This document shows positions 13,358 to 51,424 of a DNA stretch of 64,000 nucleotides, one piece after another (position 1 is the stretch's first letter; each line of letters begins with the position of its first letter). Below the pieces are notes generated by a model that had not been told where the DNA came from, did not search any database, and saw only the letters and a program-made list of their open reading frames with translations. This DNA comes from Sphagnum magellanicum (lineage: Eukaryota; Streptophyta; Sphagnopsida; Sphagnales; Sphagnaceae). The stretch is from positions 10,732,038-10,796,037 of the forward strand of contig CM038923.1 of assembly GCA_021904315.1 (NCBI GenBank), written 5' to 3'. The translations under genes were made by a program, and so were the position numbers.

Positions 13358-13380
13358 TTGAAAAGTTGAGTCCTTCAGCT

Positions 13381-16905: not shown

Positions 16906-17025
16906 CTCCTCAAGTTCAGTGTTTCCGAATTCAGATTTGTCACTGATCGATCTCGACCGTTGACACTCCTTGTCACAATCCCCAGACGTATCAGAGTTCG
17001 AGCCTGATACTTGCGCATCCAGTTG

Positions 17026-17380: not shown

Positions 17381-17639
17381 GTCTATGTGAGGATTTCTTG
17401 CACACTTCCACCACTAAGATATGCACTCACAAAAAACCCTGTTAGAAGTGGAACTACTATGTAGTATGTAGTTGAAGTTTAATGAGTTAGGTGGTTCGAA
17501 GTAAGTAATGAAATTTACTAAAAATCTAATGCGTTGTGTCCAAATCTCATGATTTTATTTTTATTTTATTTTATTTTATTTATGTCTTTGACCAAAAGTT
17601 AAGCTCGAAACTAAAAACCACTTGTTTAGATTGAGGGAA

Positions 17640-18098
17640 AAAACAACAACTCAACCTCCTCTACTTTCACAAATGCAATTCCTTCACAACAAAACTGATG
17701 ATGCTGAATTTTTGGGACAAGCTTCTACACATTTCAATCTATAACTGATCTAATTTTGAGACAAATCCAATGGTGGATTTGAAAGAAAAAATTAATTAAA
17801 CCAAAAGTCCAGAGGCTTTCCCATGGAAATCATTCCATGAAACCCACTTCAACACCCTCTACTTTCAACAATTGTAACTCCCTCACAGCAAAACCGATGA
17901 TGCTGAATTTTTGGGAGGAGCTTTTACACCTTTTGAACTAACACTAAACTAATTTTGAAATAAATCCAACGGTGGATTTGAGAGAAACAATTAATTAAAC
18001 CAAAGTCCAAAGGCTTTCCCATGGAAATCATTCCATGAAACCCACTTCAACACCCTCTACTTTCAACAACTGTAACTCCCTCATAGCAAAATCGATGA
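17640..18098. repeat. About 198-bp tandem repeat, 2.3 copies
   Basis: The word GATGATGCTGAATTTTTGGGA starts at 17,697 and again at 17,896, and a third copy begins at about 18,094 but is cut off. Units share CCTCTACTTTCA, GGTGGATTTGA, AATTAATTAAACCAAA and CTTTCCCATGGAAATCATTCC. The third unit breaks off where the GC-richer frame begins. Confidence 0.85.
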
Positions 18099-18427
18099 AT
18101 GTTTCTCAACGGCCACGCGAAGAAGAACCGCCCAGGAGAGTGGTGCGCACTCAAGTCGCTCGTTCAGTATGGGATCGTCGATTGTCTCCTAACCCACATG
18201 CTTTAGCAATTTATTTAGAGTTTGTTCCTGCTTGTGGAACCGTGCCAAAAAGATTTGAAGAGCGCCAGTGTGAAGATGATGATGTCCGTCTCCATTGTCG
18301 AACGTGGGTTCCCGGTTATGGCCATTATTGTTGGCTACGAGGCCCGATCAACCCACTTCCCTTGGAGCATCGAACCGAGTACCTCGCTCACACCATTCGC
18401 TGCATCCTAGATTTTTTACAACTGTGA
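18098..18427 (+). CDS. Unrecognised 110-codon frame inside the insertion
   Basis: An open frame starts at ATG (MNVSQRPREEEPPRRVV) directly after the broken third tandem unit. It runs about 110 codons to a stop. A longer in-frame start lies at 18,035 inside the repeat. Composition is clearly GC-richer than the surroundings and the predicted peptide is not low-complexity: basic N-terminus, then CRTWVPGYGHYCWLRGP and a C-terminal EYLAHTIRCILDFL. I recognise no domain. It may be a captured host exon, a retrocopy, or chance. Nothing shows that it is expressed. Confidence 0.3.
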   Translation, partial: NVSQRPREEEPPRRVVRTQVARSVWDRRLSPNPHALAIYLEFVPACGTVPKRFEERQCEDDDVRLHCRTWVPGYGHYCWLRGPINPLPLEHRTEYLAHTIRCILDFLQL

Positions 18428-18928
18428 TCTATCTTTTAAGTTAGTTATTCAGCTGTAATTCACCTGAGGCTACTCAGGCGGAAGTGTTTAATACTTAAGT
18501 TTGAATTGATTATATTTAGAAGTCCGATAGAAGTGAAACTAAATAAAGATGTATTAGGACTACATCCTAACAATCTTATAAGTACATCATTAGTGTTTGA
18601 AGATTCTTCTATAGACTAACTTAACCTTGTCATGGCGAAATGTTATTGTTAATTATGGGCTTGTATTTCCTATCTATCAATAAATCACATCTAATTCTAC
18701 ATCCCCTTTCCCTTCTCTTCAACATAAAAAGGATAATGTACTCTAAAAGGTTTACTAGGTGCTTAACTGATTAAGCATTACATCAACTGAAATAAAGAAA
18801 GTATTATATGCCTGGAAATATCACAAAGGCTGATTCAACTATTAATAATCATTACTTGGAGGCTTATAAGCATTCCAATCATTAGTACTAAAGAAAATTA
18901 CGGAACTAAGGCTTAACTAATTATTGAG

Positions 18929-19246
18929 CTATAATCCATGGCTCATAGTCTCCGATTCGGAAATTAAGTGCATCATACCCAACTCTCTAACTACTGCAGC
19001 CGCCATGACAGACATGGATGCTCTAGTGTCCACTAGTCCCTTAATTAGGGAGCCGTTTATCTCTACCGTCAAATGCAAGGTTTTACTTCTGTGTGTCTTG
19101 TTAATGCAGATTCTCCGCAACATCAGAGTTGCAGACACCATCGTCACTTGATTACTGGCGACTTCTGCATCCTTCTTTCTTCTAGCAACCTTCACCAGAT
19201 TTTCCAGTTGCTCCAACTCGCCTGGTATCATCATAACTGTCTCCAT
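18929..19246 (-). pseudogene. Retropepsin protease, N-terminal half
   Basis: The frame contains LHLTVEINGSLIKGLVDTRASMSVM, the start of a gypsy aspartic protease. The catalytic motif normally reads DTGA(S/T). Here it is DTRAS, so glycine is replaced by arginine and the enzyme would probably be inactive. It shares its frame with gag upstream, separated by one TGA. It ends where the 1.56 kb insertion begins. Confidence 0.8.
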
Positions 19247-19309
19247 CGATGTCAGTGAGATCTTCCCTTTTATGAAATGGGAAAGGATCTTTGACCTGAT
19301 GGAGTCCTC

Positions 19310-20341
19310 TCAATTCACCACAGTGTTGTCTTCTGCAACATCAGTCGATGGTACAGTACTCGCCGGGGGCATTTCAATAGGTAGCCTACGTCTGGGCACA
19401 CGAACATGTGAGAACACATTTTCATTCCCACATAATTCATTGAGTTGTTGTAAAGTTGCTACTTCATCATTCAACAACACTTCAAGGAAATTTGCCGCTC
19501 CAGAATGCGATTTCGCATCCTTAGATTTCCTCCAACACTTGTCTTTTGAATGCCCGAGACCCGAACAGAAAGAACATTTCACACCACAGTTTTCTGTCCT
19601 ATGAGGCATGCCACATTTGGTGCATTTCGGCCGTGGCTCATTCAACCTTGGACAGGTCGTGGCTATATGGTCCCTTCCCTTACAGACTTGACATTCTTTA
19701 GGTAGGGTAGAAAAAGATGATGGGATAGAGTTCGGCACACTTCCCCTAAAAAAATTGATCAGCGTGTTGTTTAGAGTAGCAACTTGATGTTCCATCAGCG
19801 TCTCTACTACTCCCACCTCTTGCTCCTCCTTTAAAGGTTCGAATGGAGTCTCTCCAAGCTCGCCCAACATTCGTTCAAACTTGGTAGCTGCACCCACCAG
19901 CTCCTCAATGTCAGCAAAAGTTCTTACGACGCATAATTTTCGAATTTCAGGCTTTAGTCTGGCCAAAAACCTCCGTTTCTATTCGGTGTCTGGTATTCGA
20001 CTTCTCTGGAACAACCTGTCCAAACGTTCAAAATACTTCTGAACCCTCTCCCTGGGTTCTTGCTTGATGGCATCGAGCTTCACTCGTATGTCATCAGCAT
20101 CCACACTCCCGTACTTCTGTACGATCAGTGTCTTCAGCTCCAGCCAATCGGCTGGTGCCGGTTGTAACCTTCTGAACCACTTTCTGGCCCTGCCTCTCAA
20201 GTTGAGCTTGACGATCTTAAAAAGCTTGTCTGCATTGAGGTCTCGCACCTCAGCAGCCATGCTGAGCCTTTCTGCCCAATCACCAACGTCTTCATGGTCC
20301 CTTCCCCAAAACAATTCATCCATGCCCTGGGGACTGGTCAT
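19310..20341 (-). pseudogene. gag: capsid-like domain plus three zinc knuckles
   Basis: Gag of the gypsy element. The first 120 codons (from 20,341) form a Retrotrans_gag-type domain: LFWGRDHEDVGDWAERLSMA, LRGRARKWFRRL and LIVQKYG. One in-frame stop at about 19,979 separates them from the second part. That part carries three CCHC zinc knuckles: CQVCKGRDHIATTC, CTKCGMPHRTENC (spacing one residue short) and CSFCSGLGHSKDKC. A TGA near 19,310 separates gag from protease in the same frame. Start Met (MTSPQGMDE) is the first ATG before the conserved domain. Confidence 0.85.
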
Positions 20342-20626
20342 CTTTCAGAATTTCAGCGATAACAGAAACAAGATGTAACACTCCTCACCACACATAGACC
20401 CTCAAATCACAAAAACAAAATTGATCAGCTCCTCGGCTTCTGCAGTTCGATTCTAACTCTTGAAAGAAAAAAATTTGCTTGAGTCATCGATCAAACTCAG
20501 ACCGAGCGCCCTCAGCTACAAGTATCAAAGGTTCAAAATTTGATGGAAAAATGGAGAAACATTGCTCATCTGTGGATTCCTGCTGGAATTGCCACTTTGA
20601 TGCCGAATCGCGCCACACCCACCAGC

Positions 20627-21143
20627 TTATGAGACGGGACCTCGTTCCGGAATGCTCCACAGGACTATACGATCTCCAATTTGGAACAGGTCCTCCACAC
20701 CAAGAATGTAGAATCTAGGAAAATGGTTAGCTGAGAGAGTTGACTTGGGGATCCAAATGTCTCCCAGTCTAGGCACATTGCACTGCCTCTCAGCAAACAA
20801 TGGCGTCACCCTACGCAAGGTAGGTGGTGTAGTGGTATTGTGTCTGTAATTGTGAGATTGACACCCACCCCCTGGTTCCATTACTCACCTTCACCTAGAC
20901 CTCAGCTCGGGTGTAAAAACCACTATGAGCTATTTCAATCACTATATCTCCTACTTTGGCCTCATCGGGATCTATTCCTACAATAGTTATCACACCAAAT
21001 CCCAAGGAATATAATACCACGGCCCCTCTCGGTGGCAATACACCCTGAACAGTGTAAAAGTCGAACCTATGGATGATTCTTTGCTCACGAGTCTCCTGTA
21101 CTAGTTCTTCCACTTCTATATCATCTGCACCAGTCGAGGACAT
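20627..21143 (-). other. Leader region of the gypsy element with two short frames
   Basis: Between the primer-binding site and gag lie two frames. One (21,143-20,895) begins MSSTGADDIEVEELVQETRE, the other (20,881-20,627) begins MEPGGGCQSH; they are in different frames. Neither shows a known domain. The first is the first ATG after the primer-binding site and could be a gag leader peptide, but stops in the gag frame separate both from gag. Confidence 0.35.
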
Positions 21144-21205
21144 GTTTCCTTAACTACCATCACACCTGGGTCTTCATATGTTATACCGAAACCCACTGGA
21201 TCCAA

Positions 21206-21220
21206 CCTGTTCTGATACCA
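21206..21220 (-). promoter_or_regulatory. Primer-binding site, initiator tRNA-Met type
   Basis: In element sense the sequence next to the 5' LTR reads TGGTATCAGAACAGG. It matches the plant initiator tRNA-Met primer site TGGTATCAGAGC with one change. This fixes the minus-strand orientation of the element. Confidence 0.8.
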
Positions 21221-22837
21221 AAAGGAGAGGGACCAAACAACAACTAGACCCCTCAAGTTGATCTCACTCTGATAGAACGAGAATCAAACAATCACACCTC
21301 AAAGAAACATCATAGCAACATCCAGGCAGCTAGATTCACACGAGAGATTCATTATTGGAAAAAAAAAAATCTCTTCGGAGCCTCTGCAGATGCGGCTCCC
21401 ACACAGAATCTCAAGGACCAAAACATATAGTTCGGATTTCACATAGATCCTTGTCCACACAAGCTTCCTCTAGCTACAGAGCGTTCATCAGTCGTTTAAC
21501 AATTGCTCAAACACGATCGACCTGACTTTCACCAGATTCAGGAGCTAGCCATCCACTAGTCACTAACGCAGCGGAAGAAATCAGCAACTAGCCATCTTCT
21601 GAGCTCTTCAGTGTCACAACCCCACTTTGGCCAAGTGTGGGGGTGAAGCCCAACACTTGGAAAAGTTGGAGGTTTGGAGTCCTCCGGGACTCCCGAATGT
21701 TTAGAGTTCAACAGCAAGGCCCAAAACACCTTGCATTAGGGTGTTTTTGGTGTCATTGGAAAGGTCTTGAAACTTAGATATCGAAAATGGCCTCGCATTG
21801 GCCATTCGGACATCTGCAGCCCAAGTTATGGGCAAACGAAGGGCCGGGAGTCAAATTGGCAGTTTGACTCCCGACCACTAAAAGTCAAGAATCAACCTTT
21901 CCCAAACGTCGCCTTGAAGAGTGCAACACGGCATTGGAAAGCTCTTGACAAGAGCTATAATTTTGATTCAGGACTCGTCCCAATCCGAGTTTGGGGCGAG
22001 GAGCTATGGCCGCTCAAAGTTCCGGGAGTCCAACCAGGACACTTTCGGGACTCCATTTCGGGAGTCCCAACAAAATGTGCCATTCGGATGTAGCCTCCGC
22101 GACCAGCCGCAAAGAATACTATATGGGGGAAGGTGGTGGCTTCCCCCGAGTCCGGGCCGTGGTGAGTCTTGTGTGTCCAAGTGCCCGTGACAAGTCCCAA
22201 CACCCAAGGGTGTCCCGAATGCTAAACTAACTCGATTTGGTTGGTTTTTGGATGCAGATTCACACGAGCTAAACTAGTCCCTCTTCTTAGTTTAATCCCT
22301 GGGCTCCCAACTCGACCATCTACCCCTTTTTAGGGTTGGAAGCCAGGAGCGTGCTACTAAGTCTCAACTTTCCGCAACTTGATTTTGTGAAACCCTCAAG
22401 TGGGTTTCACCCCATGACTTGGGAGTGCATCATTCAGCATCTTCCAAAAACTTCTACCTCACCTCAGTTCACCTCCACCCTCCAAGATAGATCCTCTCCT
22501 CTACTATGCCCTCTCTCTGAACTCCCTAGCTCGATCTGCCTTCCTCCCCAAAAAAACTAGGACTCTCCGCTCCATTTTAGCTCTCCTCCTCATTGAATTG
22601 TCAGCTCCGGCGCTGTCATGCATCCTAACCACCTTGAATCATAAAAGCCATCACCTCCTTTGCCATAATTCTGTGTCGTCCTCCTCAAGTGTGGTGAGCA
22701 TCCATGATCACACCAGAGCAACCGCCATGCATAGTTGCAGTACTGAGATGTAATGCGCAGCCAACCAACTGACAATGCAAAAATCAGGATCAGAATCAGC
22801 GTAGCTCCATTGTTTGGTCACCCCATGTCTGGTTACA
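21221..22837 (-). mobile_element. 5' LTR of the gypsy element, interrupted by a solo LTR
   Basis: It matches 12,546-13,338 base for base in long stretches, with scattered substitutions. The match is interrupted between TCTTCAG and CATCTTCC by an 821-bp insert plus a 5-bp duplication. The outer end in element sense is TGTAACC. Net LTR length without the insert is about 790 bp. Confidence 0.85.
21612..22432. mobile_element. Nested solo LTR with 5-bp target duplication
   Basis: The insert begins TGTCACAACCCC and ends GAGTGCATCA, so it has TG...CA ends. It is flanked on both sides by TTCAG (21,607-21,611 and 22,433-22,437). It is absent from the partner LTR. Size, ends and duplication fit a solo LTR left by recombination of another gypsy element. 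TGTCACAACCCC at the left end suggests plus orientation, but the reverse complement also starts TG. Short frames within it are not real genes. Confidence 0.85.
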
Positions 22838-26620: not shown

Positions 26621-27469
26621 CCTTTTGAACTATAATAGGACTATGAGTTGTTGCAAAACAATGATGTGTGGTCAAGTTGATTAATCACATCACATAATAT
26701 GGAATGAATTGTTGAGTGCAATTGCTTTTAAAATTCTTCCTAGTTTGTAGGCCCTTTTTGGTTTTATGCATCTTGCATTAATGAAGTATTGTTTCATTAT
26801 TGTCTTTTGCCTCATGTGTTTCCATTTCTCCTTTTTTTGCATTAGTGATATTGATTCTTTCTCCTTATGCATCTTTTATCAATGATGTCATGCTCATTAT
26901 ATCCTTCATTATCTACTATCTTCTTCATCTTTCATTCTCCATCACTCACAATAATTCTTTTTAGACTTGTTAATTTTTCATTAACTTCACATTCTTTTTA
27001 CATTCCCCTTGAGTGGAAGATGCTTTATTTGGAGGTGGAGATTTTCAAATGAAAATTTGTGTAAGAAAAAAAGGATCACCACCCATTATGCTCTTGAAAA
27101 TTTCCTTAAAACTACATATATATATATAATGAACAAAAACAAAAAATTGATGAAGGGTAGCATCATACATTTAATTTAAAGAAAAATAAAATTTCAAAAC
27201 ATATCATTCATACACATTGAAATTTACTACATTCATGTGCAAAATATCCTTAGATCAACTTAAAACCATTCAAAAGATAAACCATACAATAATTGGAGGC
27301 CATGCTTAAACTATATATCATAAATTCAAATTTCAACATAAATCGTTGGTTGCTACGCTAATAATAACATTCAATTTCACTTTTTAATGTGTGCTTCAAA
27401 TCAAAATGATAATGTTTTAAAAATCACATGGTGGGTTTAAAAATCCTATTGACTTATCCTAAAGCTTGA

Positions 27470-27790
27470 AGCTACTACCTTTTTACCTACCTACTTACCT
27501 AGTTAGCATTTAACACACCTACCTAACTATAAACCTAGGTTAAATAGGTAAGTAGTTTAGGTACCAAGGTTACCCTACCTAAACTACCTAAAAATGTACT
27601 TATGTACTTAAACTACTTACCTATTTAACTACCCACCTAAGCTATCTACCTATCCACAGACTTAAAATATCTAATTATATACCTACCTACCTAGGTATGT
27701 ACTAAAACATCTGACTTATTTTCTACCTACCTACCTTGATTACCAACCTACCTATAACTTATATAAAATATGTTTTTAACATCAAGCCAA
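27470..27790. repeat. CCTA-rich degenerate tract (arm A)
   Basis: Degenerate CTACCTA/TTACCTA words over about 320 bases. The mirror copy in the opposite arm is at about 49,020-49,330. Confidence 0.7.
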
Positions 27791-28302
27791 TCACCCAAAT
27801 GTTTGACAACCTAACTTTCAAATAGGTACCCATGAATACATTAACATGCCATTTTAATTGTTATTTGCTATGACCTAGTTGCAAGATATGAATAATCAAA
27901 TTATGTCAACAAACACCAAAAGTCAAAGTGAATACATGTGAAAATCAATCATTAGTGTAATCAAACAAAATTCAATTGTCAAATTACAAGATTAAAAAGG
28001 TGATCATGTTTGAAGATGTAAGTTGAAATGTATTCAATCATAATGAATTGGTAAATTGTGTGTTTGAACTTTTAAATTTATAAAATTTCATGACCTTGAC
28101 ATATTCCACATAGTCAATTACCAAAATATATTATCCTTTTGTTGGATACAATGCACATAGTCAATTTACCAAAATATATTATCCTTTTGTTGGATACAAT
28201 GTAGAAAAATAAATTGTTTGTTGTTTGTAAACAACATGACATGATGCATATTGCTTCATGAAAATTGTGTGTACCCTTTGCCAATGTTTTTTGAAGGGAA
28301 TT

Positions 28303-28555
28303 TTTTTAAAGCCAAAGTGGTGACCATCCTTAGGAATAGTCTTGTTATATACAAAATATGAAATACAAATCCTTAATCATCCTTTCATGTTTTTGGCTAC
28401 ACAATGAAAACCAAATATAGAAATTTGGTGACTTATTTTTCTCACTTTTGGCAATCCAAAATCACTTCATTTTTAAATTTTTACTTTTCATCTCACATCT
28501 TGTCAAAATTTCGTCAATAAAAAAAAGTCTACATGATGCCTTTTAATTCACATTT
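28303..28555 (+). repeat. Dispersed repeat family R1, partial copy
   Basis: AGCCAAAGTGGTGACCAT, TTAATCATCCTTTC, GGCTACACAATGAAAACCAA and CAATAAAAAAAA follow in the same order and spacing as at 40,536-40,790. The two copies are diverged by tens of per cent, so this homology is much older than the inverted duplication that contains it. Confidence 0.65.
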
Positions 28556-29639
28556 GCATGAGAATTGTGTGAACATAAACAAGTCACTCCATTGTTATCT
28601 GTACCAAATTAGTTTTCCATTCTGGATTTCATATTAATGTCCACCTAAAGGAAGTCATGTTGAGATCCTTGTGTGGAATTGTATGGTACATAGTTTCGTG
28701 TCCAAAAGGCTTCAAGGATGTAACAATTTTGCCATGTTCCATTCTTGTAGCAAGATTCTCCACACTTTTCTACAACTTTGATGGCAACCATATAAGAATT
28801 TTGCCACGTAGCCAAATTCCACCATTGAAATGGTAGGCTACCTTGATTACATTAAATAAGCTTAAAACTTAGCCATTTTCTCATAAGTGTGATGTCAGGA
28901 GGTTCATAGGAAAAATAGTTGTAGCACGTGAATGAAGGTCATTTGTGTTTTTATAGTGTTCAATGTACATCACAAGCAGCATATATTTTGGGGACAAATT
29001 TTTGCATCGTGGCAACCAAAAAAATCAGAGAAAATTGGAGAAATTCCCCAAACGTTTGAAAGAAAAAATTGGAAAAAAAACTCCTGATGACAATACCGTT
29101 TTTGGCTCTCAGATAAAGGGATAGCTGATTATTGAAAATAGAGTTTAGTGGTAAATATATTCTTGAAAAATACAAAACATGGAGGATGGTATTGCATCAG
29201 AAGCAGGGTTTTTCTTTTCAATTTTGTGAGCTAGGTGGACTGGCCATCATCCACACTTAGAGGACTTAGCCTAATTTGGCTACAAGTCATAGAGGGAAGT
29301 AGAAACCAATTGGGACCATGCCAAAAACTATCTGGCGTCTAAATCTGGCGATTTCAGAAAAGAGTCCTCCAAAGGATAGCAAGTTTGGGCCATTTTTTCC
29401 AAAAAATATCCTTGGAATGAGTCGCAGCCCCATTTTTTGGTCAGCAAGTGGTGAAATGTCGCCCCAGAAGAAATTGCTGATCAGGAGTGACATTAAAGAG
29501 GTTCCAGAATATTAGTTTGAGCGAACAAGATTTGGATGCAAAAGGTTTCAAAACTGAAATCTTTGTGTTTGAAGGTTCAACAAGATTGTGTTCATGCACT
29601 CTGAAATGACTAGATGCTCGGGGTAATGGCCTTAGATGG

Positions 29640-30181
29640 GGTGTTCCTTAGGTAAGCACCTTCAGGAGGCAGAGTGGAGGCCAGGGGTGCTTACTTTGAG
29701 GGTGTTACCCAGTGTAAGTACTCACAAGAAATTCCATTTTTCCAGGAAAAGAAAGAAAAAAGATGGCAGGCGCTTGAAAAAACGAAATGCTGGCTCTTGC
29801 ATTTTGTTTTTGGAAACACTCTCCTCTTGTGGATGAAAAACTACCCTCTGTAAGGGTACCTCTGGATACACTAGAAAATTTCGGGTAAGCCTTGACTTGT
29901 TAAAAGATGTTAGTTGTTGGAGGCGAACATCAAGAGTAAAAACAAACATGTCTCATGGGATAAAAATTCATTTGGTTGAAAAGACTAAACCAAATGCTTG
30001 TGTTACTTCAGGAAGTAATACAACTGAAAGTAATTCAAGTTCCATGGCGTCTGATCAGTATGCTTTAATGGCCTGCTTGTTTTACCACATAGCATGGAAA
30101 CAACTACCTAGATCAGCACTTCTTTTTGTGCCAAAATTTTGCCACTTGGCTACAAAATGGGCCAAATACACCAGATTTTGA
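29640..30181 (+). other. Unrecognised frame with perfect inter-arm conservation
   Basis: One frame is open from about 29,636 to 30,181 apart from a single TGA near 29,834. The last 94 codons (starting LLKDVSCWRRTSRVKTN) are identical at nucleotide level in the opposite arm (46,629-46,913), while flanking sequence shows substitutions and indels. The peptide has a Ser/Asn/Thr-rich middle and no domain I recognise. It could be a decayed exon or simply a gene-converted patch. No start or splice context is convincing. Confidence 0.3.
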
Positions 30182-32328
30182 AAAGAAAAAAATTCGAAAA
30201 TCATCAGATTTCTACAATTTGTTCCAGCAGGTAGCCAAATTGTAGCATGCTTCTTAATTTTTTCTACTTTCATATCTTTAATATAGCCAATTTTGGCTAA
30301 ATACTCTTGCGGATGGTCACCAATGTGGCTACATCACAAAATTGGGAAGAAAAAGAGAAAAAACCCTCATCTAGATACATATGCTCTTGTCTAAAATTCA
30401 TGAATTATAGCAAAATTGTGTTCAAATTGATGATCCTCTAGCCTATTATTCTATCTTATAATTTGCCACTGTTGAGAAATCAGGCATTTTGCACGTAAAC
30501 GAACAATTCACTTGAAAAAAAATCATGCTTGCATTTTCGTAGGCTTGTCATATACATGATCTACAAACAAAGAAAAAGTTCAACTGAATTTAACATGACT
30601 GAAGGCATTTTGCTTGTGAAAACCAAAGCTTGACTTATTTGAACATTCTTTACTTGAGGGTCATTTTCGTCATTAAATAATCCATAAAATAGTTAAAATA
30701 ATTTTCATGAGAATATGAAGCTGAGGTGTGGGAAAAACCATCACAATTATGGAAGGCCACCATCTGAATAATTTCACTCCGAATATAGCAATATCATACT
30801 AGATCATGAAAGGATAGTATATTCAAAATTAAAAGCGAATTAATTTTTTTTGAAAATAATAATTATTCATCTTGTCAATGTTAAAACTGACTATAGCCTA
30901 AGTACATAGGCTATCTATAATTTCTGTGCAGGGCAAAGCCCTAAAATGAGAGCATTCTCGAAATGAAGGGGCCTAGCACGAGGTTATAATGAGTCAAGCC
31001 CCGCATTTTGGGAATGTCCCTCACCCATGGTCCTTACCTATCATATAAGCACAAGAGAAAATTTATTATGAACCAAACCTACGTGCATCAGGAAGAGTAG
31101 GAGTGGGAGGGATATTACATGTACTCCTGAATATTATGTGCATCAGGAAAAGTTTAACTAAAATAGAGACTAAATTTGTCAAGAGGCATCTACATATAAC
31201 TGACATTACTTCTTCAAGTTGTGAAGAATAATAGCACGTACACAATTCTGGAATTGTGCAATCCTCTTTTCATCTTTTCTTGGCCAAAGTAAACATACTT
31301 GGGAAACACACCTGGGGGAGACGCGGTAGATAGAGATTTACAATTGCCTGTTTGCAGGAATGCAGTTGTTCAATCTTGGGCAAATGATATTGGAACCCGT
31401 TGCAAAAAATCCCAAAATCTACTTGTTTTGGGGGTAAACTATAGAACAGAAAAAAAGTTGTGCTGTTATATGAACCTCAACAAAATAAACTATCCTTTGA
31501 AGACATCATTTTTTTGGGTGGTGATTTTTTTCAAAAATGGAAAAAAAGAATTAAAAAAACCTTCCCAATCACCAAAAGGTGAGAATAAATAAATAAATCT
31601 TTGAAGAAATACGGCCAGAGTCTACATCAGGTTCCAATAGTAGCTAACAATATGGAACGATAATTTTTTAAAAAAAAAAAATTCATATTTTGGTAATGGC
31701 CAAAATTGTCCAAATCATCTTGTGGATGATGGAGTTATTTGAATTAAAAAGAAAAATACTTATTTTCATAAAAAAACACCAGATCATTTGGACTTTCTTG
31801 ACGAAACCAGAATCAATATGTACATTTAAAAAATAATATCCATTTTTAATTCTTACAATTTTCTTTTCACTATAAACATAAAAATAATATGTTAGAAAAG
31901 TAGAGCTCGACTATATCGAAGAAAAAACATTAGAAAATGGAAATGCAATTGAAATTCAGATTACATTTTCCCCTGTAGCCAGATATGCGAGATGTAAGAT
32001 CATGAAGTCCCTACTATATGCTAACACATGAAGAACTAGAAGGCACCTTAAAAAATCTTTGCAAATTAAGCAAGAAAACGGCATGTGTAGATGAAGCCCA
32101 GATTAAGGGAGAAAACGCCTAATTATATCTGCGCAGATGAAGGAAAAAAAAACGCTTTGTATTTGTGCAGATTAATCAAGAAAACCCAGAGAGAGAACAG
32201 CACAAAATTTCGTTAAGCTCATCAGCATCTGCAGCTCATCCGGATAAGGTAAGCAAGAACCGCAGCAGCTAGCGACCTCCAAGCCGTGTACGTGCGGTCC
32301 AGCGCTGCACGTTCGAAGTCCCCGTCCC
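30182..32328. other. Arm A sequence upstream of PEBP copy A
   Basis: No supported gene. It contains GCCACxxGGCTACAAAAT-like words, a small island at 30,900-31,420 with no motif, and the far upstream region of PEBP copy A. The corresponding region in the other arm has an extra segment of roughly 150-190 bp near 45,535-45,690. Confidence 0.4.
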
Positions 32329-32355
32329 GATTGGCTCTCAGTCGCTCCTATATAA
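32329..32355 (+). promoter_or_regulatory. Putative core promoter of PEBP copy A (CCAAT + TATA)
   Basis: ATTGG (reverse CCAAT box) lies about 15 bases before TATATAA (32,349-32,355), with GC-rich sequence just upstream. The same elements are conserved in the opposite arm. The TATA box is about 220 bases before the first ATG, so a leader of about 190 bases is expected. Confidence 0.6.
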
Positions 32356-32576
32356 TCCGTCTGCACCTCGCAGTTTCGGTATGTGCTCAGATTTGCAATC
32401 CATCAGCTGCACCATAAGGAAGAACTCTCGGGCTAGTACTGATCCCAGCGCGATCTGATCGGCCAGGACTGGCTGGCTGACATATTTCTTGGGGCTTTTT
32501 TTAATCTGTAGTGGGCCAGTAGTGTTGCGTGGTGGCTGCACTGTCCGAAACCCAGTCTAAAATTCTCATCACCATC

Positions 32577-34409
32577 ATGGGGTTCATGATCCCTGCAGTC
32601 ATGAAGAAGAAGCTCAGGCCCTCGTTTGGCACTTTAAGGTTCATGGTGGTGCTTATAGCAGTTGTCGTGCCAGCGTTCCTTGCTTCTCACGGTGCGTTTT
32701 TGTTACTTCTGACTAGCCAATATTATAAGTAGCTTCTGACAGCAGCTTCGAGCTGGACTGCAGTAGCATCGACTGCTTGCTAGCTTGATGCGTTCAATCA
32801 GATCATGAGTTTAATCTTGAAGTCATGAAAGGGGTCTTGTTTGCAGAATAATCCAGATTGGAAGTACCTCGATGCAAAGGAATCATTTGTTGCTTCATGC
32901 TGACTAGTGCGGTAGCCAGGTCAGACGTAAAAAGGATGAGATCAGAAGACACGGTAAAATTGGAACATGTATAGCAAATGCTCGAGTAGAAGTTCGCAGG
33001 AAGAAAGCTGGCCGGCCGTAGGAAGAAATCTTGAACTAGCACTAATTACAAGTGGGATACCAGACCTGATCTATTGCTCGATAAGTTCCGGTAAAGATTA
33101 GGTAAAGTTTTCCAGCTGAAATTGTGATCTGGTGCTAGGATCCGATGGCTGCTGCAGGCCTACCGGAATTGGATCTGGTGAAGAGTAATCAGGGAACACT
33201 GACACCGGCAGAGACTTACGTGGAATCATGTGAATGACATGCTGCAGGAAATGCCCAATGCTTGAATCCATCACCGGAGCTGCTGTTCTATAGAGGTGCG
33301 ATAATCCCAGATGTGATCCAATCGGTGCCATGCGAATTCCAGCAACTTCAAATATATTATCCTGGTGTCATTTCCCAGGTGTCCTTCAATCAATCTCTCT
33401 TCCAAAACCAAACCTCGGGCGGCGCCTCACGTGGAAGTGTTGGGGGCTGGAGGTGTTTTTTTGGGATGTTACACCTTGCTAATGGTCGATCCTGATGCTC
33501 CGAGCCTTAGCGAGATCATACACTGGATTGTCACCGACATCCCTTGGGATCTGTCTCCACTTTCAGGTACGCCGGCCCGTATTCGAACATATACTTAGCC
33601 TGAGTGTTGTTCAAGTTTCCGGCAGCTAAGCCAAATGGTCCTGGGATAACACTAGAAACTAATCCACGTCTTGTAGCTTAGGAATCTTGTGTTTCTCAGT
33701 AAACCGATTCTCTCATGTCTTGAGCTCCTGATCGTGATCGAAGTCGAGTTTAATGACTGTGGACCCAAGTTGTTTTTTTCCCTGATCCGACTAGGCCTGA
33801 GGTCCAAAGCCATGCAATGTCTCATCGCGTCGAAAGTTGAAATGCCAGGACATTTGTTTGACAAAATGCTTTCCGAATAAATATATGCAGAGATTACTAC
33901 CGCGAACGTCGTTTTGCCATACATACCCCCGACACCAATCGCTGGAAGGCACCGTTATATACTCCTCTTGTGTGAGCAAGTACGTCGTTCTGCATCTCTA
34001 AACCTGTGGCAAGAGCTTGCCTATTAGATCTGATCTTTGGATTCCAAGAGACGATCCGCAAGGAGCCGAACGAATTGAACCGCCTTACGTTAATTGAAAG
34101 GAACATTGTACTGTTCTTAGGATATCAGAGGGCATATTAATTCACCGGACATGTTATAGAAGAACATTTTAGCTTCTGGAGTGATCGTCAATATGTTAAT
34201 CATCTTTGAATGCTGCGCGTCTAGCTAGCTGCCGGTCCTAATTGGATTAATGTTGGTGGGTGGTGTTGTACTGATGTTTGCAGAGAAATTGTACTTTCAA
34301 CCCACCAGCACCTGGGCGTATTCTTTTCAGTGCAGAAGGGTTCGCATCGGTTAATGGCCTTGTAGGACCTGTTTCAGGCATTTATTTCGGGGTCACAGCA
34401 GGTGAATAG
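32577..34409 (+). pseudogene. Secreted-type PEBP gene, copy A (frameshifted)
   Basis: Four-exon PEBP-superfamily gene: exons 32,577-32,691, 33,248-33,566, 33,891-33,979 and 34,284-34,409, introns of 556, 324 and 304 bases, all GT-AG. Exon 1 encodes a signal peptide (MKKKLRPS then FMVVLIAVVVPAFLA). Exon 2 carries GAIIPDVI and YTLLMVDPDAPS. Exon 3 carries PYIPPTPIAGRHRYILLL. Exon 4 ends PVSGIYFGVTAGE and stop. One extra G in exon 2 (CTCGGGCGGC for CTCGGCGGC in B and C, about 33,417) shifts the frame before DPDAP, so this copy is broken unless it is a sequencing error. It also shares a 15-bp deletion with copy B and is the most diverged in exon 4. Confidence 0.8.
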
Positions 34410-34559
34410 ATCAGATTGAATATTGATGGATTCCCCAACTTGGGCATGATCTAATAAGCTTCCGATGTCAGTCCTGGTAAGTCTCGTCCCTCGTGCAGCT
34501 TAACTAGCTTGAGATCAGGATTGACAATTATTTATAGTACTAGTGCTTCTTGTTGCCGT

Positions 34560-34700
34560 GATATATAGAGATCGTGGAGACTTGACCTTGTTGCACCAGT
34601 CCAGGGCGTAAGCGCAACGGCCGCATAACAACAACGACCACCGTTGCAGCTTGCACCAGGGCCGTCAACAGATCTGTGGTTGCAGTTCCCAGGTTAAGGC
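34560..34700 (+). other. GC-rich conserved island 3' of PEBP copy A
   Basis: A GC-rich stretch (CCAGGGCGTAAGCGCAACGG ... CACCAGGGCCGTCAACAG) stands out in AT-rich DNA. It is kept nearly unchanged in all three copies (also about 41,980-42,070 and 51,600-51,700). It could be 3' UTR or a regulatory element. No motif identified. Confidence 0.35.
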
Positions 34701-34917
34701 ATTTCATGATTTTTAAGATTAAAATGGATAACTAAATAAACTAGGAGCATTTTATATAACAGGAATTTTAGACATTTTCAGGAAGAGCAGGTTGAGACAC
34801 GTTCATGCCCAAGAAACCCAAAGCCATATTTTTATTTTTCTATTATGGATTTAATAAAGGATCTTTTGCTCCATAGAGGTCCAGCATTAAGTACCTGAAA
34901 TCATAGTTCATATCATT

Positions 34918-37900
34918 TAAACACATGTTGTAATGTCTATTGGTGTTATTTAGACATGAAAGTCATGCACAAGACTTTTGTGTTCAAATATTTCACAACA
35001 TTCATGTTTAATTAATATGAACCAATGATCAAAATTAATTCATTCGCACTCCTACGTTTGTTTAAGTGGTCCATATTAAACCCACACTTGGGTTATTATT
35101 AATTTTTATTTTTTGACGTGTGAAGACTACGTTTATTAATAACAATCAGTGCTAAACATGTGGAAGAAAGTGTGACCTTTTTGGAAGGTGGTGAAGTTCA
35201 CAATTTCAATTTTGAAAATAATTGTGTGCTAGACTTTATTGTTGAACCTTTGGAAGACCCCAACCCCTACTACATTATTTTTCAACCCTATTAACTTTAA
35301 ATGAACTTGAAACATTCCAACCCTATTAGATTTCACACATGTTTAAAGGATCTCAACACCCATTAGATTAGCATAGGTGGATTGTAAATAAGATAACATT
35401 GTAGATAATGGGGACCACATGAAAATAGTAAGGGGGCATGTATCAAAAGGAAAATGACATTATGCAAAACTTGAAGCCTTTCAAGACCCAACCGTGTTAG
35501 TAGATGATGGATGGTTATTAAGGTCAAAAAGTTTTCTAGGCCAATTTTTAAGAATTGTAATTTTGTATCAAAAATCAAACTTAACTGATTTTTTATGTAA
35601 ACTAATTTTACATTTCTATCAATTTTACATTCTGAAAATTGACATTTCAATTCTGGAAATTGTTGTTTAAATTCAAAAAACTAATTTGATCTAAAAATTG
35701 ATATTTGAATTCTAAATTATTATTTTCGAATCTAAAAATTAGTATTTGAATTCAAAAACATTTATTGAGTCTAAAAATCGACATCTTTATTTTAAATATT
35801 TTTACTTCAACTTGAAATTTGATATTTGAATTCTGAAGTTTTTAATTAAAATTTTAAGAAATTACTTGACTTGAAAGTTAAAATTTGAATTTCAAATTAT
35901 TATTTTGGATTTTCGAAATTAATATTTCAATTTAGAAAATTATTAATTGAGTTTAAAATGGACATTTTAATTTTGAATATTATTATTTGAATCTGAAAAT
36001 TGACATTTCAATTCTGAAATTTGTTATTTGATCTAAAAATTGAAATTTGAATTCTGAATTACTATTTTGGAATCTGAAATTTATATTTTAATTCAAAAAA
36101 TTATTGATTGATTTTTACGGGTTTTTTCTAGTAGTGTTATCCATAGTAGATCACTTTTATAATTAATTAGAAATGATTATGTTTATTAAATTTAAGTTAC
36201 ATTAAATAATGATTGTTATACCATAGATCTGTATATTATATAATTTATATTCTTACATTAGAAGAAATAAATGTAATGAATGTGACATTACTTTAAAATC
36301 ATTGTAATTACTTCAAATAAAAATTAATTAGTATGTGCATAATTATTTTTTAATTGAACATAATTATTCACTCTTTGTAATTTATGACTTTAAACCTGAA
36401 TTAAAAATTTATAGAAATTTTATAGTAATTATGAAAATTAATGTTATGTTTAAAAAATTATTGTATTTATAGTTAATAATTACCAAGAGAAAAAAATTAC
36501 TTGACGTTTAATAATTTTTACAACTATAAATACAATTATAAAATAAATAATGTAATTAGTTAAATAATATTTTAAAATTTTTTTGGTGAAAATCTACTTT
36601 CTAATAGCAATTGTTAATTCATTATTTATAATTTTAACTTAAATATTTTAAATAGTTAAATTTTAAATTGTAGTCATTAAATTAATTTTACATTAACCAT
36701 ATTATATATAATTCAATCAGATTCTAAAAAGTAATACAATATTTTAAAATATTTTAGTTATTTAATTATTTAAGAATTATGTATTAATAATTTGTGAATA
36801 ACTAGATAGTTTGTTAAATATTAAAAAGTTATTGCTTATTTAAGTAATTGATAATGAATACTGAATATTTGTAGTGTATAATTTATAATTTAAGTATATG
36901 TAAATTTAATCATGATTAATTAAATGATTATTTAATTACCTAGTACTTGAATTGTTTAGAAATCTAAAAATTAGGAAAGTAAAGCTTGGAGAAAGTTTTG
37001 GAATTACAACTTAGTTTATAGGGAAGTTGCAACTTCAAAACCTATCCCATATTGTTTGTTTTTCATTCCTATTTTGAACATTATATAAACATGGGGTGTG
37101 GTCGTCCATTTCACATTAAAAAATTTGTGCACATGGGATGAGCTAATAAAAAAATTCAACCCAAAAGAAAAAAACAAATTATGCACATTTCTAAAGTACT
37201 TACCTTCCTTACCTACTTATCTACTTAGTTACGAAGGTACCTAATTTGACCTACCCACCTAGGTCGATTTATGTACTTACCTACCTAAATACATACCTAT
37301 ATGAATAAGTATTTAACTTAGGAAGGTATAACTTAATAATAATATTTTAAATAATCAAATATTAAGACACGTGCTAGCACATCATTTGCCCTCAATTGTG
37401 ACCAAAATAATTGCATCTTAATCGCATGTGACAATATGTATACAAAGTCAAAGGATGAAATGTACTTGTTGATTTTTTTCTTTCATATAATACCCTTTGT
37501 CATTTGCGAGTAATTTATCACATGCGACTTGTCTTAGGCGGTTAAAGGTATTTTAGTTACAAAATGTCTCTTGCGACTAAATTTAATCACAAAGACTAGT
37601 CGAAAATACATGTTTTTCTTCTAGTGATTGTAACATTGTTTATTATTATTTACTTGTTTTTTCCTTAAGACAAAGTGGTAGGCTATTTGCTTAACCTTCT
37701 TCCACCTATTTTAAAGTGATTATTTGTCATTAAACACTAATATATTTGAGGTGTTCAAGTTTGTATTGATTTTCAATTAAGTACCCAAAAACACCTAGGA
37801 ATTCACTAGGCGGGCCTAACAATGGCAAAATATGCTTCAATCATCGACATACACATCGTGTTCCAACTATGTGCAATGGTGCCACATCGATAAGAAATTC

Positions 37901-40044: not shown

Positions 40045-43000
40045 CAATGTGAAAGAAAGGTATGTTTGATGAACTCAATGTATGATGTATCATTGAAGGT
40101 TTGAAACACATATTATTTAAAAAATATTGACATGTCTACTTTTGTTGAAATCTACACATTTGATTTACTTGAAAATCTATCATTAAGAAAATAGATTTAA
40201 TTACATATTGTTCAAAAATTCATGTGGATTAAACTTTCAAAATTGGCACTATCATCCAATAATGGGCCCTATTCAAAACATGGAGGCCATGTTTTAGACT
40301 TGAAAAAACATAGTCCTTACAAAGGACCTACACTTGGGGCCCATTGGTTCTTTTTATTGTGAATGCACCCATATGTGTGTGGGCTACTTGCAATCAATGC
40401 CAACTCTCACATTCTCATTTCTGAAACTAATTTTTAGCGTGCAAAAAAACATGGTGCTAACCATTTAAAAAATGGCAACTTCATGCTGAAATAAGTTCTA
40501 TTTCCACTTTAGTGCTTTTTTAAGGAATTTTTATTTGTAGCCAAAGTGGTGATCATTGATAGGAACATCTTAGCTATAAACCAGAAATAAATTACAAATA
40601 TTTAATCATCTTTCTATATTTTGGTTACACAATGAAAACCAAGTATACAATTCTAGCAATTTTTACTTTTTTTCCCCTCACTTCTAGTGACTAAAGACTT
40701 ACAAAAACACTTCTTTTTCGAATTTTGAGTTTTGAATTTCACCTTTTGATGAAATTTTACCAATAAAAAAAACTATTCCATTGCCATTGCATGCAGGTGC
40801 CATCAGCATGTCTAGAAGCATAAGGTAGACAATCTTTTTGTAAACCCTGGGGCACTCATCTAATCATATATATTGTAGTACCCTTTTCAGGTTCGGTGGG
40901 GATTACATTATTTTTTAAAATATCAAATTTTCTTGAAATTGCTTGTTTCAAATGCCAAAATTTAAGGAAATTACAAGAGAGGGCAAAATACAGAATTTGG
41001 TGGAAGCCCAAGACCCAATCCACCAGCATTGCATGTATCATGTATCGTGTATCCAATAATTGAGAACATATTTCTATGCTATAATTTGTTAGAACTTTAT
41101 GTCTCTCCATTTTTGCAAAAAGAAGCAATAAAATGTTTAGAGGTTTAGAGTCAAGAGAACCTGCCAAAGAAGCTACCTATATTACCAGTGTAAAATGAGT
41201 TGTTTTCACAGACATTTGCCACTGTTGTGAAATCTAAAAATTGAGAAAAACAGCACCCTAACATAACCACCATGTTTTCGGCAAGAGCTGTTGAGAGGAC
41301 CCCATAGAAATAGAGAAACATGAAAGTAAGTAAATGTCTCTCTATTGAGAACAATATGAATATATTAGAAAGTTGTAAATTTTTCCCCTATTCTTTGGTT
41401 CATAGGATTCATCCTTCCAATGCATTGGAACTTAGGATGGAATTGTACCTACCTATTTCATTTAGTTATCCAGCTGACGATAGTAAGCAGAAGTGCTCCA
41501 GATTTATTATGACAAATTAAGTTCATCAAAACTATCCCTGCAAAAATCAACAAATCACATCCAAATTTTTGAAACTCAAAAAACCTAAAAGTCAAACCTT
41601 GCATTTAGAATTTCATAATGCCAATGAAAATTACCAAAAAGTTCCGAATATGATAACCATAACCTAGATAGTACAAACACCAATTATTAGACTTTACATA
41701 GTAGAGATCAAAGTAATTAACTTTCAATTTAATGCACTGATCAAAATGATATGAACTATGATTTAAGGTACTTAATGCTGGACCTCTATGGAGCAAAAGA
41801 TCCTTTATTAAATCCATAATAGAAAAATAAAAATATGGCTTTGGGTTTCTTGGGCATGAACGTGTCTCAACCTGCTCTTCCTGAAAATGTCTAAAATTCC
41901 TGTTATATAAAATGCTCCTAGTTTATTTAGTTATCCATTTTAATCTTAAAAATCATGAAATGCCTTAACCTGGGAACTGCAACCACAGATCTGTTGACGG
42001 CCCTGGTGCAAGCTGCAACGGTGGTCGTTGTTGTTATGCGGCCGTTGCGCTTACGCCCTGGACTGGTGCAACAAGGTCAAGTCTCCACGATCTCTATATA
42101 TCACGGCAACAAGAAGCACTAGTACTATAAATAATTGTCAATCCTGATCTCAAGCTAGTTAAGCTGCACGAGGGACGAGACTTACCAGGACTGACATCGG
42201 AAGCTTATTAGATCATGCCCAAGTTGGGGAATCCATCAATATTCAATCTGATCTATTCACCTGCTGTGACCCCGAAATAAATGCCTGAAACAGGTCCTAT
42301 AAGGCCATAAAGCGATACGAACGCTTCTACACTGAAAAGAATACGCCCGGGTGGTGGTGGTGGGTTGAAAGTACAATTTGTCTGCAAACATCAGTACAAC
42401 ACCACCCACCAACATTAATCCAATTAGGACCGGCAGCTAGCTAGATGCGCAGCATTCAAAGATGATTAACATATTGACGATCACTCCAGAAGCTAAAATG
42501 TTCTTCTATAACATGTCCGGTGAATTAATATGCCCTCTGATATCCTAAGAACAGTACAATGTTCCTTTCAATTAACGTAAGGCGGTTCAATTCGTTCGGC
42601 TCCTTGCGGATCGTCTCTTGGAATCCAAAGATCAGATCTGATAGGCAAGCTCTTGCCACAGGTTTAGAGATGCAGAACGACGTACTTGCTCATACAAGAG
42701 GAGTATATAACGGTGCCTTCCAGCGATTGGTGTCGGGGGTATGTATGGCAAAACGACGTTCGCGGTAGTAATCTCTGCATATATTTATTCGGAAAGCATT
42801 TTGTCAAACAAATGTCCTGGCATTTCAACTTTCGACGCGATGAGACATTGCATGGCTTTGAACCTCAGGCCTAGTCGGATCAGGGTAAAAAACAACTTGG
42901 GTCCACAGTCATTAAACTTGACTTCCATCACGATCAGGAGCTCAAGACATGAGAGAATCGGTTTACTGAGAAACACAAGATTCCTAAGCTACAAGACGTG

Positions 43001-43866
43001 GATTAGTTTCTAGTGTTATCCCAGGACCATTTGGCTTAGCTGCCGAAAACTTGAACAACACTCAGGCTAAGTATATGTTCGAATACGGGCCGGCGTACCT
43101 GAAAGTGGAGACAGATCCCAAGGGATGTCGGTGACAATCCAGTGTATGATCTCGCTAAGGCTCGGAGCATCAGGATCGACCATTAGCAAGGTGTAACATC
43201 CCAAAAAAACACCTCCAGCCCCCAACACTTCCACGTGAGGCGCCGCCGAGGTTTGGTTTTGGAAGAGAGATTGATTGAAGGACACCTGGGAAATGACACC
43301 AGGATAATATATTTGAAGTTGCTGGAATTCGCATGGCACCGATTGGATCACATCTGGGATTATCGCACCTCTATAGAACAGCAGCTCCGGTGATGGATTC
43401 AAGCATTGGCCATTTCCTGCAGCATTTCATTCACATGATTCCTCGTAAGTGTCTGCCGGTGTCAGTGTTCCCTGATTACTCTTCACCAGATCCAATTGCG
43501 GTAGGCCTGCAGCAGCGATCGGATCCTAGCACCAAATCACAATTTCAGCTGGAAAACTTTACCTAATCTTTACCGGAACTTATCGAGCAATAGATCAGGT
43601 CTGGTATCCCACTTGTAATTAGTGCTACTTCAAGATTTCTTCCTACGGCCGGCCAGCTTTCTTCCTGCGAACTTCTACTCGAGCATTTGCTATACATGTT
43701 CCAATTTTACCGTGTCTTCTGATCTCATCCTTTCTACGTCTGACCTGGCTACCGCACTAGTCAGCATGAAGCAAACAAATGATTCCTTTGCATCGAGGTA
43801 CTTCCAATCTGGATTATTCTGCAAACAAGACCCCTTTCATGACTTCAAGATTAAACTCATGATCTG
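40045..43866 (+). repeat. Inverted repeat 2, left arm
   Basis: About 3.8 kb that recurs as reverse complement at 49,786-53,615. It spans part of the spacer, the left edge of block B and PEBP copy B up to intron 1. Both ends can be placed: CAATGTGAAAGAAAGG at 40,045, and CTTCAAGATTAAACTCATGATC ending at about 43,866. Confidence 0.88.
40536..41190 (+). repeat. Dispersed repeat family R1, best copy
   Basis: Landmarks in order: AGCCAAAGTGGTGATCAT, GGTTACACAATGAAAACC, ACCAATAAAAAAAA, TAGTACCCTTTTCAGGTTCGG and AACCTGCCAAAGAAGCTACC. The first half matches 28,303-28,555 and the whole series matches 8,225-8,990. A reverse copy lies at 52,486-53,130 as part of the inverted repeat. A 103-codon minus-strand frame here shows no motif. 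Confidence 0.6.
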
Positions 43867-44088
43867 ATTGAACGCATCAAGCTAGCAAGCAGTCGATGCT
43901 ACTGCAGTCCAGCTCGAAGCTGCTGTCAGAAGCTACTTATAATATTGGCTAGTCAGAAGTAACAAAAACGCACCGTGAGAAGCAAGGAACGCTGGCACGA
44001 CAACTGCTATAAGCACCACCATGAACCTTAAAGTGCCAAACGAGGGCCTGAGCTTCTTCTTCATGACTGCAGGGATCATGAACCCCAT
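42253..44088 (-). CDS. Predicted secreted PEBP-family protein, copy B (intact frame)
   Basis: Four exons on the minus strand: 44,088-43,974, 43,416-43,099, 42,774-42,686 and 42,381-42,253; all introns GT-AG, phases 1, 1, 0; total 217 codons including stop. The 216-residue protein has a signal peptide (hydrophobic core about residues 22-36, cleavage likely near 39-42), four cysteines (43, 67, 112, 177) and three N-glycosylation sequons (86, 92, 176). PEBP hallmarks are GAIIPDVI (55-62), YTLLMVDPDAP (113-123), GRHR (163-166) and the C-terminal PVSGIYF. DPDxP and GxHR line the anion/ligand pocket in this superfamily. Start is the first in-frame ATG; a second Met at residue 9 (MKKKLRPS) would also give a signal peptide. 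Five residues after DAPS are missing relative to copy C. Function is not inferred beyond extracellular ligand binding. Confidence 0.8.
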
Positions 44089-49692: not shown

Positions 49693-50248
49693 CATAATGG
49701 GTGGTGATCCTTTTTTTGTTACACAAATTTTCACCTCCAAATAAAGCATCTTCCACTCAAGGGGAATGTAAAAAAAATGTGAAGATCATGAGTTTAATCT
49801 TGAAGTCATGAAAGGGGTCTTGTTTGCAGAATAATCCAGATTGGAAGTACCTCGATGCAAAGGAATCATTTGTTGTTTCATGTTTCATGCTGACTAGTGC
49901 GGTAGCCAGGTCAGACGTAGAAAGGATGAGATCAGAAGACACGGTAAAATTGGAACATGTATAGCAAATGCTCGAGTAGAAGTTCGCAGGAAGAAAGCTG
50001 GCCGGCCGTAGGAAGAAATCTTGAACTAGCACTAATTACAAGTGGGATACCAGACCTGATCTATTGCTCGATAAGTTCCGGTAAAGATTAGGTAAAGTTT
50101 TCCAGCTGAAATTGTGATTTGGTGCTAGGATCCGATGGCTGCTGCAGGCCTACCGCAATTGGATCTGGTGAAGAGTAATCAGGGAACACTAAAGAATGAC
50201 ACACACAGGCAGAGACTTACGTGGAATCATGCGAATGATATGCTGCAG

Positions 50249-51424
50249 GAAATGCCCAATGCTTGAATCCATCACCGGAGCTGCTGTTCTATAGAGGTGC
50301 GATAATCCCAGATGTGATCCAATCGGTGCCATGCGAATTCCAGCAACTTCAAATATATTCTCATGGTGTCATTTCCCAGGTGTCCTTCAATCAATCTCTC
50401 TTCCAAAACCAAACCTCGGCGGCGCCTCACGTGGAAGTGTTGGGGGCTGGAGGTGTTTTTTTGGGATGTTACACCTTGCTAATGGTCGATCCTGATGCTC
50501 CAAGTCCGACCGATACGAGCCTTAGCGAGATCATACACTGGATTGTCACCGACATCCCTTGGGATCTGTCTCCACTTTCAGGTACGCCGGCCCGTATTCG
50601 AACATATACTTAGCCTGAGTGTTGTTCAAGTTTCCGGCAGCTAAGCCAAATGGTCCTGGGATAACACTAGAAACTAATCCACGTCTTGTAGCTTAGGAAT
50701 CTTGTGTTTCTCAGTAAACCGATTCTCTCATGTCTTGAGCTCCTGATCGTGATCGAAGTCGAGTTTAATGACTGTGGACCCAAGTTGTTTTTTACGCTGA
50801 TCCGACTAGGCCTGAGGTCCAAAGCCAGGCAATGTCTCATCGCGTCGAAAGTTGAAATGCCAGGACATTTGTTTGACAAAATGCTTGCCGAATAAATATA
50901 TGCAGAGATTACTACCGCGAACGTCGTTTTGCCATACTTAGCCCCGACGCCAATCGCTGGAAGGCACCGTTATATACTCCTCTTGTATGAGCAAGTACGT
51001 CGTTCTGCATCTCTAAACCTGTGGCAACAGCTTGCCTATTAGATCTGATCTTTGGATTCCAAGAGACGATCCGCAAGGAGCCGAACGAATTGAACCGCCT
51101 TACGTTAGTTGAAAGCAACATTGTACTGTTCTTAGGATATCAGAGGGCATATTAATTCACCGTACATGTTATAGAAGAACATTTTAGCTTCTGGAGTGAT
51201 CGTCAATATGTTAATCATCTTTGAATGCTGCGCGTCTAGCTAGCTGCCGGTCCTAATTGGATTAATGTTGGTGGGTGGTGTTGTACTGATGTTTGCAGAC
51301 AAATTGTACTTTCAACCCACCAGCACCCGGGCGTATTCTTTTCGATGTAGAAGTGTTCGTATCGCTTTATAACCTTACAGGACCTGTTGCAGGCATTTAT
51401 TTCGGGGTCACAGCAGGTGAATAG
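50249..51424 (+). pseudogene. Secreted-type PEBP gene, copy C (lacks exon 1)
   Basis: Exons 2-4 are present and open: 50,249-50,581, 50,906-50,994 and 51,299-51,424, with introns of 324 and 304 bases and intact GT-AG sites. Exon 1, the signal peptide, TATA and CCAAT boxes are missing because the block begins in intron 1. The core is the most family-like of the three: DPDAPSPTDTSLSEIIHW has the length of the usual PEBP motif, exon 3 reads PYLAPTPIAGRHRYILLLYEQ and exon 4 ends YNLTGPVAGIYFGVTAGE. It has no frameshift. Without a first exon it is probably a 5'-truncated pseudogene, unless a new upstream exon is spliced in. Confidence 0.75.

Follow-up and report, generated by a model that had tools for sequence, protein, structure and literature searches.

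Plant PEBPs have been studied as cell-internal flowering signals that move from cell to cell and, to our knowledge, those in print are cytosolic or nuclear. For liverworts, mosses, hornworts, and lycophytes, an excerpt of one paper describes a single MFT-like PEBP clade, with divergent members perhaps missed, and places TFL1 closer to FT than to MFT (PMC8408984). Secretion is known or predicted for PEBP4, a fly protein, a gall-wasp protein, and YbcL, according to a passage of a second paper that names no plant (PMC8793217). An excerpt of a third paper includes a predicted extracellular PEBP of Orobanche cumana among 22 genes of a mapped interval that are predicted to be secretory (PMC11606015). 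Our literature searches returned no paper on secreted moss PEBPs among the matches listed. In this study, we analyzed a 64,000-nucleotide stretch of the peat moss Sphagnum magellanicum (assembly GCA_021904315.1, contig CM038923.1, positions 10,732,038 to 10,796,037 of the forward strand; hereafter the window), which carries a PEBP gene with a signal-peptide-like leader (the focal gene). With a probability of roughly 0.65, the product of this gene has the PEBP fold, passes into the secretory pathway, and is released to the cell wall space, where we propose a pocket ligand and a changing partner for it. The PEBP fold and secreted PEBPs elsewhere are already known; what is new is a secreted-looking family outside FT and MFT in a peat moss.

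The focal gene lies on the minus strand (44088-42253). Its four exons give 216 codons and one terminal stop, and its three introns, all GT-AG, account for 1185 bp of the 1836-bp span (Table 1). The product is 100% identical over 216 aa to the database protein CY35_17G058300 of S. magellanicum (row P0001 of our alignments), which is labelled hypothetical. The four-exon model of the first-pass annotation, made from the letters alone, was therefore confirmed by re-modelling and by the database. Membership of the PEBP family was confirmed with a match to Pfam PF01161 (E 9.7e-15; 55.5 bits, curated cut-off 24), and the DPDAP and GRHR motifs that the annotation had claimed were both found in the product.

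The first 41 residues of the focal protein consist of a basic stretch and a strongly hydrophobic core, followed by SHGNG-QC. The mean Kyte-Doolittle value (KD) is 3.16 over 12 residues from residue 24, and the net charge before them is +5. Cysteines are located at residues 43, 67, 112, and 177, and sequons at N86, N92, and N176. These features were compared across a family alignment of 14 full-length rows (P0001-P0014, focal protein included). A leader is present in all 14, with a best 12-residue KD mean of at least 2.68 within the first 75 residues. Among the matches listed, 73 FT/MFT-type rows shorter than 200 aa served as the comparison; 72 of them have a KD below 1.91 in the first 60 residues, the length scanned for this type, while the family rows were scanned over 75 residues and some of them start upstream. 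The exception is P0097 (KD 2.72), the leader of which lies upstream of the usual MFT start. C43 and C67 each occur in 14/14 family rows, and C112 and C177 each in 13/14. P0014 of S. compactum is the single row without C112 and also the single row without C177, and the absence of both together agrees with two disulfides, C43-C67 and C112-C177. NxS/T occurs at the three sequon places in 14, 13, and 13 of the 14 rows, and the mean number of sequons is 4.0 across the family versus 0.67 across the 73 FT/MFT-type rows. The leader, cysteines, and sequons that the first-pass annotation had noticed in one protein are conserved beyond chance in the Sphagnum-type rows. No in-frame ATG occurs between codons 23 and 117 of the focal gene; hence, the focal frame cannot yield a leaderless PEBP by an internal ATG.

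Directly after the hydrophobic core, 13 of the 14 rows read SHGN-A/G-QC, and P0014 reads SLGNAQC. Small residues at this place are a usual cleavage context. They argue against an uncut leader, which would make the product a signal-anchored (type II) membrane PEBP or a lumen-facing protein of the endoplasmic reticulum (ER) or vacuole instead of an apoplastic one. The core of about 14 residues is also short for a membrane span, and the focal sequence has no C-terminal HDEL/KDEL. Retention of the leader is improbable in our judgement, although the leader is long, with an expected cut site near 39-42, the structure model predicts a single helix (residues 17-38) there, and P0067 and P0077 (Closterium) are likewise strongly hydrophobic at the N-terminus.

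Rows P0002-P0006 and P0009-P0011 cover all four exons joined, on contigs of at most 1042-1464 bases. These contigs are shorter than the 1836-bp gene with its 1185 bp of intron and are best read as spliced RNA. The exon 1-exon 2 junction is present on the RNA-sized contigs as well as in proteins annotated in five other species, and exon 1 is highly conserved. It is therefore hardly credible that the gene encodes a usual cytosolic PEBP of the MFT type, whether with a hydrophobic 5' extension that arose by chance or with a wrongly modelled exon 1, even though this would suit the cytosolic or nuclear location of published plant PEBPs and the P0097 annotation carries such a leader-like start; the topology test given below also speaks against it. 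Rows P0018-P0023 were not used as isoform evidence; the GTPARIRT-type ends of P0018-P0021 come from intron 2, as would be expected if these genes had been called on unspliced DNA.

The structure of the focal protein was predicted from 59 rows chosen from 140, most of them named plant proteins, and a PEBP fold was obtained with a mean pLDDT of 87.2 and the one helix at the N-terminus mentioned above. Prediction from the 14 close rows alone gave a mean pLDDT of 30.9. D119, H130, P160, G163, and H165 are present in 59/59 rows and D121 in 58/59; we take the D, D, H, G, and H residues to be the PEBP anion pocket. D60 and V61 are nearly invariant across the 59 rows. The PDVI motif, which the first-pass annotation had associated with secreted animal PEBPs, is consequently not an animal-type mark, as D60-V61 is general across these mostly plant sequences.

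Two trees were built, both leaving out TFL1 and PEBP4. The first contained 49 chosen rows, including the leader-bearing P0067, P0077, and P0092, and the second contained the 46 rows left when these three were dropped. In the 46-row tree, Sphagnum groups A and B (defined below) and three fern or fern-like proteins are on one side of a branch supported at 98/95. Support is not firm for A plus B (86/70) and weak for B alone (75/39). Eight FT rows form a clade at 100/98 without the focal protein. The Sphagnum-plus-fern side of the 49-row tree, with P0092 inside, is supported at 94/93, and P0092 joins group A on an end branch of 1.57. P0092, P0067, and P0077 are other PEBPs with strong N-terminal hydrophobic stretches, and they are not grouped together in the 49-row tree. 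The approximately unbiased (AU) test rejects a grouping with MFT (p 0.0073 for A; p 0.00019 for A plus B). The phylogeny thus places the focal protein outside the FT and MFT clades, with the fern proteins. Those three proteins (P0036, P0044, and P0042) are of a PEBP type with RNFLHW and GPAPPEGxHRYVFLLFKQ, and they too are outside FT and MFT in the tree.

Horizontal transfer of an animal gene would account for the leader as well as for the resemblance of PDVI to animal sequences. A grouping of A with animal PEBPs is not rejected by the AU test (p 0.304), and in the wide profile search (7993 candidates scored, best 120 of 462 matches listed) a two-domain Bactrocera protein scored 238 bits versus 233 for the fern proteins, which slightly raises this explanation. 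It is nevertheless very improbable. The best tree joins group A with group B and the ferns at the 98/95 branch, identity to the first query row is 34% for the Bactrocera protein versus 54% for the fern protein, and D60-V61 is general. In a comparison that covers plant genes, intron 2 has the same place and phase 1 as an intron of the group B genes and as the Sphagnum MFT intron that follows SQ.

In Sphagnum MFT, the exon preceding GREIV ends in TCT CAA G^GT. The same is true of C17a, C16, and C4b among the leader-bearing genes, and the other four share the phase and the aligned place. The intron after SQ, common with Sphagnum MFT, ties the leader-bearing genes to the plant family. Directly after LL(F/Y)xQ, 7/7 leader-bearing genes have an intron that Sphagnum MFT lacks. 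In Ceratopteris, isoform P0046 diverges from P0036 directly after FKQ and continues with V, as intron retention there would give.

A profile search of the genome returned 15 matching pieces, from which seven intact leader-bearing genes were modelled. Group A1 comprises the focal gene and C17c (contig C17), group A2 comprises two genes on C4, and group B has one gene each on C17 (3.7 Mb), C16, and C10. The N-terminus is hydrophobic in all seven models (KD 2.74-3.16). The last two introns (phases 1 and 0) are common to all seven at the same aligned place, and the four group A genes carry one extra intron at the end of the leader. The same search found an MFT-type gene on C13 (exons read as P0085, inside the MFT clade), two genes on C8, which are presumably of bacterial type, and a C6 piece with two internal stops. 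The genome may hold further family members. The unusual extracellular PEBP lineage that had been suggested for the focal gene stands in that its leader, cysteines, and sequons are conserved outside FT and MFT; it is a family of at least seven models and not a single gene, and its secretion is predicted from sequence. With the N-terminal half of the C10 protein as query, in a search that needs shared 5-residue words, 15 matches were listed and the named ones were all Sphagnum. This is weak evidence that the family is absent from other mosses, liverworts, and hornworts.

The window contains two more copies of the focal gene, within duplications spanning 26978-53615 (Table 1); an extra base breaks the 33k copy, and the 50k copy has no exon 1. 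The A1 proteins of S. magellanicum (focal and C17c) share 78-86% identity with those of five other species, with A1 orthology uncertain in this multi-copy cluster; the C10 protein keeps 91-94% identity to three of those five. Pairwise comparison of the four C17 copies gives exon 4 differences of 6-11% in five of the six pairs, and intron differences of 1.3-2.6%; Fisher p values for the exon 4 excess range from 0.025 to 3.3e-07, from pairs that are not independent. When five exon 4 pairs were counted by codon, one was identical and the others gave 8N:1S, 8N:0S, 8N:0S, and 13N:1S (N, nonsynonymous; S, synonymous). The dN/dS ratio is approximately 0.27 to 0.43 in group B pairs and 0.58 in the A2 pair. 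Diversifying selection and patchwise conversion are both possible causes of the exon 4 divergence.

Several observations weigh against the proposed secreted, functional product. Five loop residues after DPDAP, present in the 13 other rows, are missing from the focal protein, as are three residues near residue 79 that most rows have. The joining of all four exons in RNA holds for relatives 78-89% identical, to which the RNA-sized contigs belong, and was not seen for the focal copy itself. In the annotated isoform P0015, the PEBP sequence breaks off at the point where exon 3 would be expected. The sixth exon 4 pair (50k copy and C17c) differs by 0%, with 4.5% in the other exons, which points to some gene conversion. 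Between the focal gene and C17c, dN is 0.046 and dS is 0.039, so relaxed constraint fits as well as selection. Moreover, the tree program warns of long branches meeting at the A1 branch in both trees, which slightly lowers our confidence, and the tested groups were named only after the first tree was seen.

The loop deletions, the odd isoform P0015, and the dN/dS of about 1.2 versus C17c also suit the idea that the focal copy is a decaying, non-functional duplicate within a family that is real and secreted, as does the broken state of two of the four copies detected in the C17 cluster. We consider such decay unlikely, if less so than an uncut leader. All four focal exons are open and their splice sites intact, and in exons 1-3 the focal gene matches the 33k copy at all but 2 of 522 aligned sites, the extra base of that copy aside. 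The pocket residues and the four cysteines are intact, and model confidence remains high despite the loop deletion.

For a secreted focal protein, the following route is proposed. The basic and hydrophobic leader would target the ribosome to the ER and be cut near residues 39-42. The mature protein may be N-glycosylated at up to three sites and closed by the two disulfides C43-C67 and C112-C177, and it would then be released to the cell wall space. There, as in other PEBPs, the conserved pocket (D119, D121, H130, H165, and the P/G loop) could bind a ligand that is phosphorylated or otherwise anionic, and the fast-changing exon-4 face could meet a partner that itself changes, either microbial or reproductive.

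Sequence features give good support to a plant PEBP lineage of the extracellular type, and the peat-moss genes described here form a real and conserved PEBP family, probably secreted, that lies outside the FT and MFT clades. A wider scenario is tentative and, on balance, doubtful. It holds that peat mosses and ferns have a further deep land-plant PEBP lineage besides FT/TFL1 and MFT, lost or unseen elsewhere, that Sphagnum made it a family of extracellular disulfide-bonded glycoproteins, and that the C17 members are under diversifying selection on the exon-4 face, as expected of microbe or gamete recognition at the cell surface. A secreted-looking family outside FT and MFT shifts the starting point for the evolution of the PEBP family. 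A PEBP pocket in the plant cell wall would also allow ligand and partner to be tested without the 14-3-3/FD machinery, in a peat-building genus.

A scan of the window gave no Rfam match at the gathering score and no tRNA. A long terminal repeat (LTR) retrotransposon, which we take to be of the Ty3/Gypsy type, also lies in the window.

Table 1. Features of the focal gene, its copies, and other elements, in window positions unless another sequence is named.
Feature	Position	Strand	Description
Exon 1	43974..44088	-	Start codon, basic n-region, hydrophobic leader MVVLIAVVVPAFLA; GT donor; ends in phase 1
Intron 1	43417..43973	-	557 bp, GT-AG, phase 1
Exon 2	43099..43416	-	QC(43), PDVI, C67, sequons N86 and N92, C112, DPDAP, HW; ends in phase 1
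Intron 2	42775..43098	-	324 bp, GT-AG, phase 1; same place and phase as the last Sphagnum MFT intron (after SQ)
Exon 3	42686..42774	-	Pocket segment PxPxxGRHRY to LLLYEQ; ends in phase 0
Intron 3	42382..42685	-	304 bp, GT-AG, phase 0, directly after LLYEQ; Sphagnum MFT reads through here
Exon 4	42253..42381	-	Sequon N176 with C177, C-terminal helix and strand, stop
Second copy (33k)	32577..34409	+	Near-identical inverted duplicate; one extra base in exon 2 breaks the frame
Third copy (50k)	49783..51424	+	Without exon 1 (similarity starts within intron 1); has five loop codons absent from the focal gene
Exon 4 of the C17 copies	42253-42381, 34284-34409, 51299-51424; L012 3667-3792		Compared in pairs
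Duplication	26978-31132 with 49791-45683		Inverted/direct duplications carrying gene copies
Duplication	31147-34918 with 45517-41744		98.25% identity (closest pair)
Duplication	40045-43865 with 53615-49783		
LTR retrotransposon	~12547-22837	-	Reverse transcriptase, RNase H, and integrase domains; repeat pairs near both ends

Compared with FT, TFL1, and CEN, the focal protein is distinguished by its leader, four cysteines, and sequons, and it lies outside the FT clade of a tree that was built without TFL1 rows. We take the 14-3-3 contacts of Hd3a to be R64, P96, F103, and R132. The focal protein has L110, S144, and C177 in place of R64, F103, and R132, and P96 is kept as P137. The MFT row P0062 has D, P, Q, and P at these contacts; thus, they do not separate the focal protein from MFT. 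Like MFT, the focal gene encodes a PEBP fold, and the two share one phase-1 intron located after SQ. In contrast to Sphagnum MFT, it is missing the introns before DPDAP and after HW and has a last intron after LLYEQ where MFT reads through. The position of the MFT W and FT Y85 is occupied by I128.

Outside Sphagnum, ferns offer a close comparison. P0036 (Ceratopteris), P0044 (Adiantum), and the fern-like P0042 share a clade with Sphagnum A and B and, among the single-domain matches listed, have the top identity outside the Sphagnum-type rows (52-54% to the first group B row). They have no leader (KD 0.6-1.3); accordingly, the leader was either gained on the Sphagnum side or lost in ferns. P0036 and P0044 have F at the position where fern PFT, compared by description only, is said in an excerpt to have W (PMC8408984). 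With regard to animal PEBPs, the focal protein is not in the animal clade of the best tree, from which PEBP4 was left out, with the AU p of 0.304 noted above. It would resemble PEBP4, the fly protein, the gall-wasp protein, and YbcL in the secretion known or predicted for them in the passage available (PMC8793217). A plant likeness, by description, is the PEBP of Orobanche cumana, which the excerpt cited above also gives as predicted to be secreted (PMC11606015).
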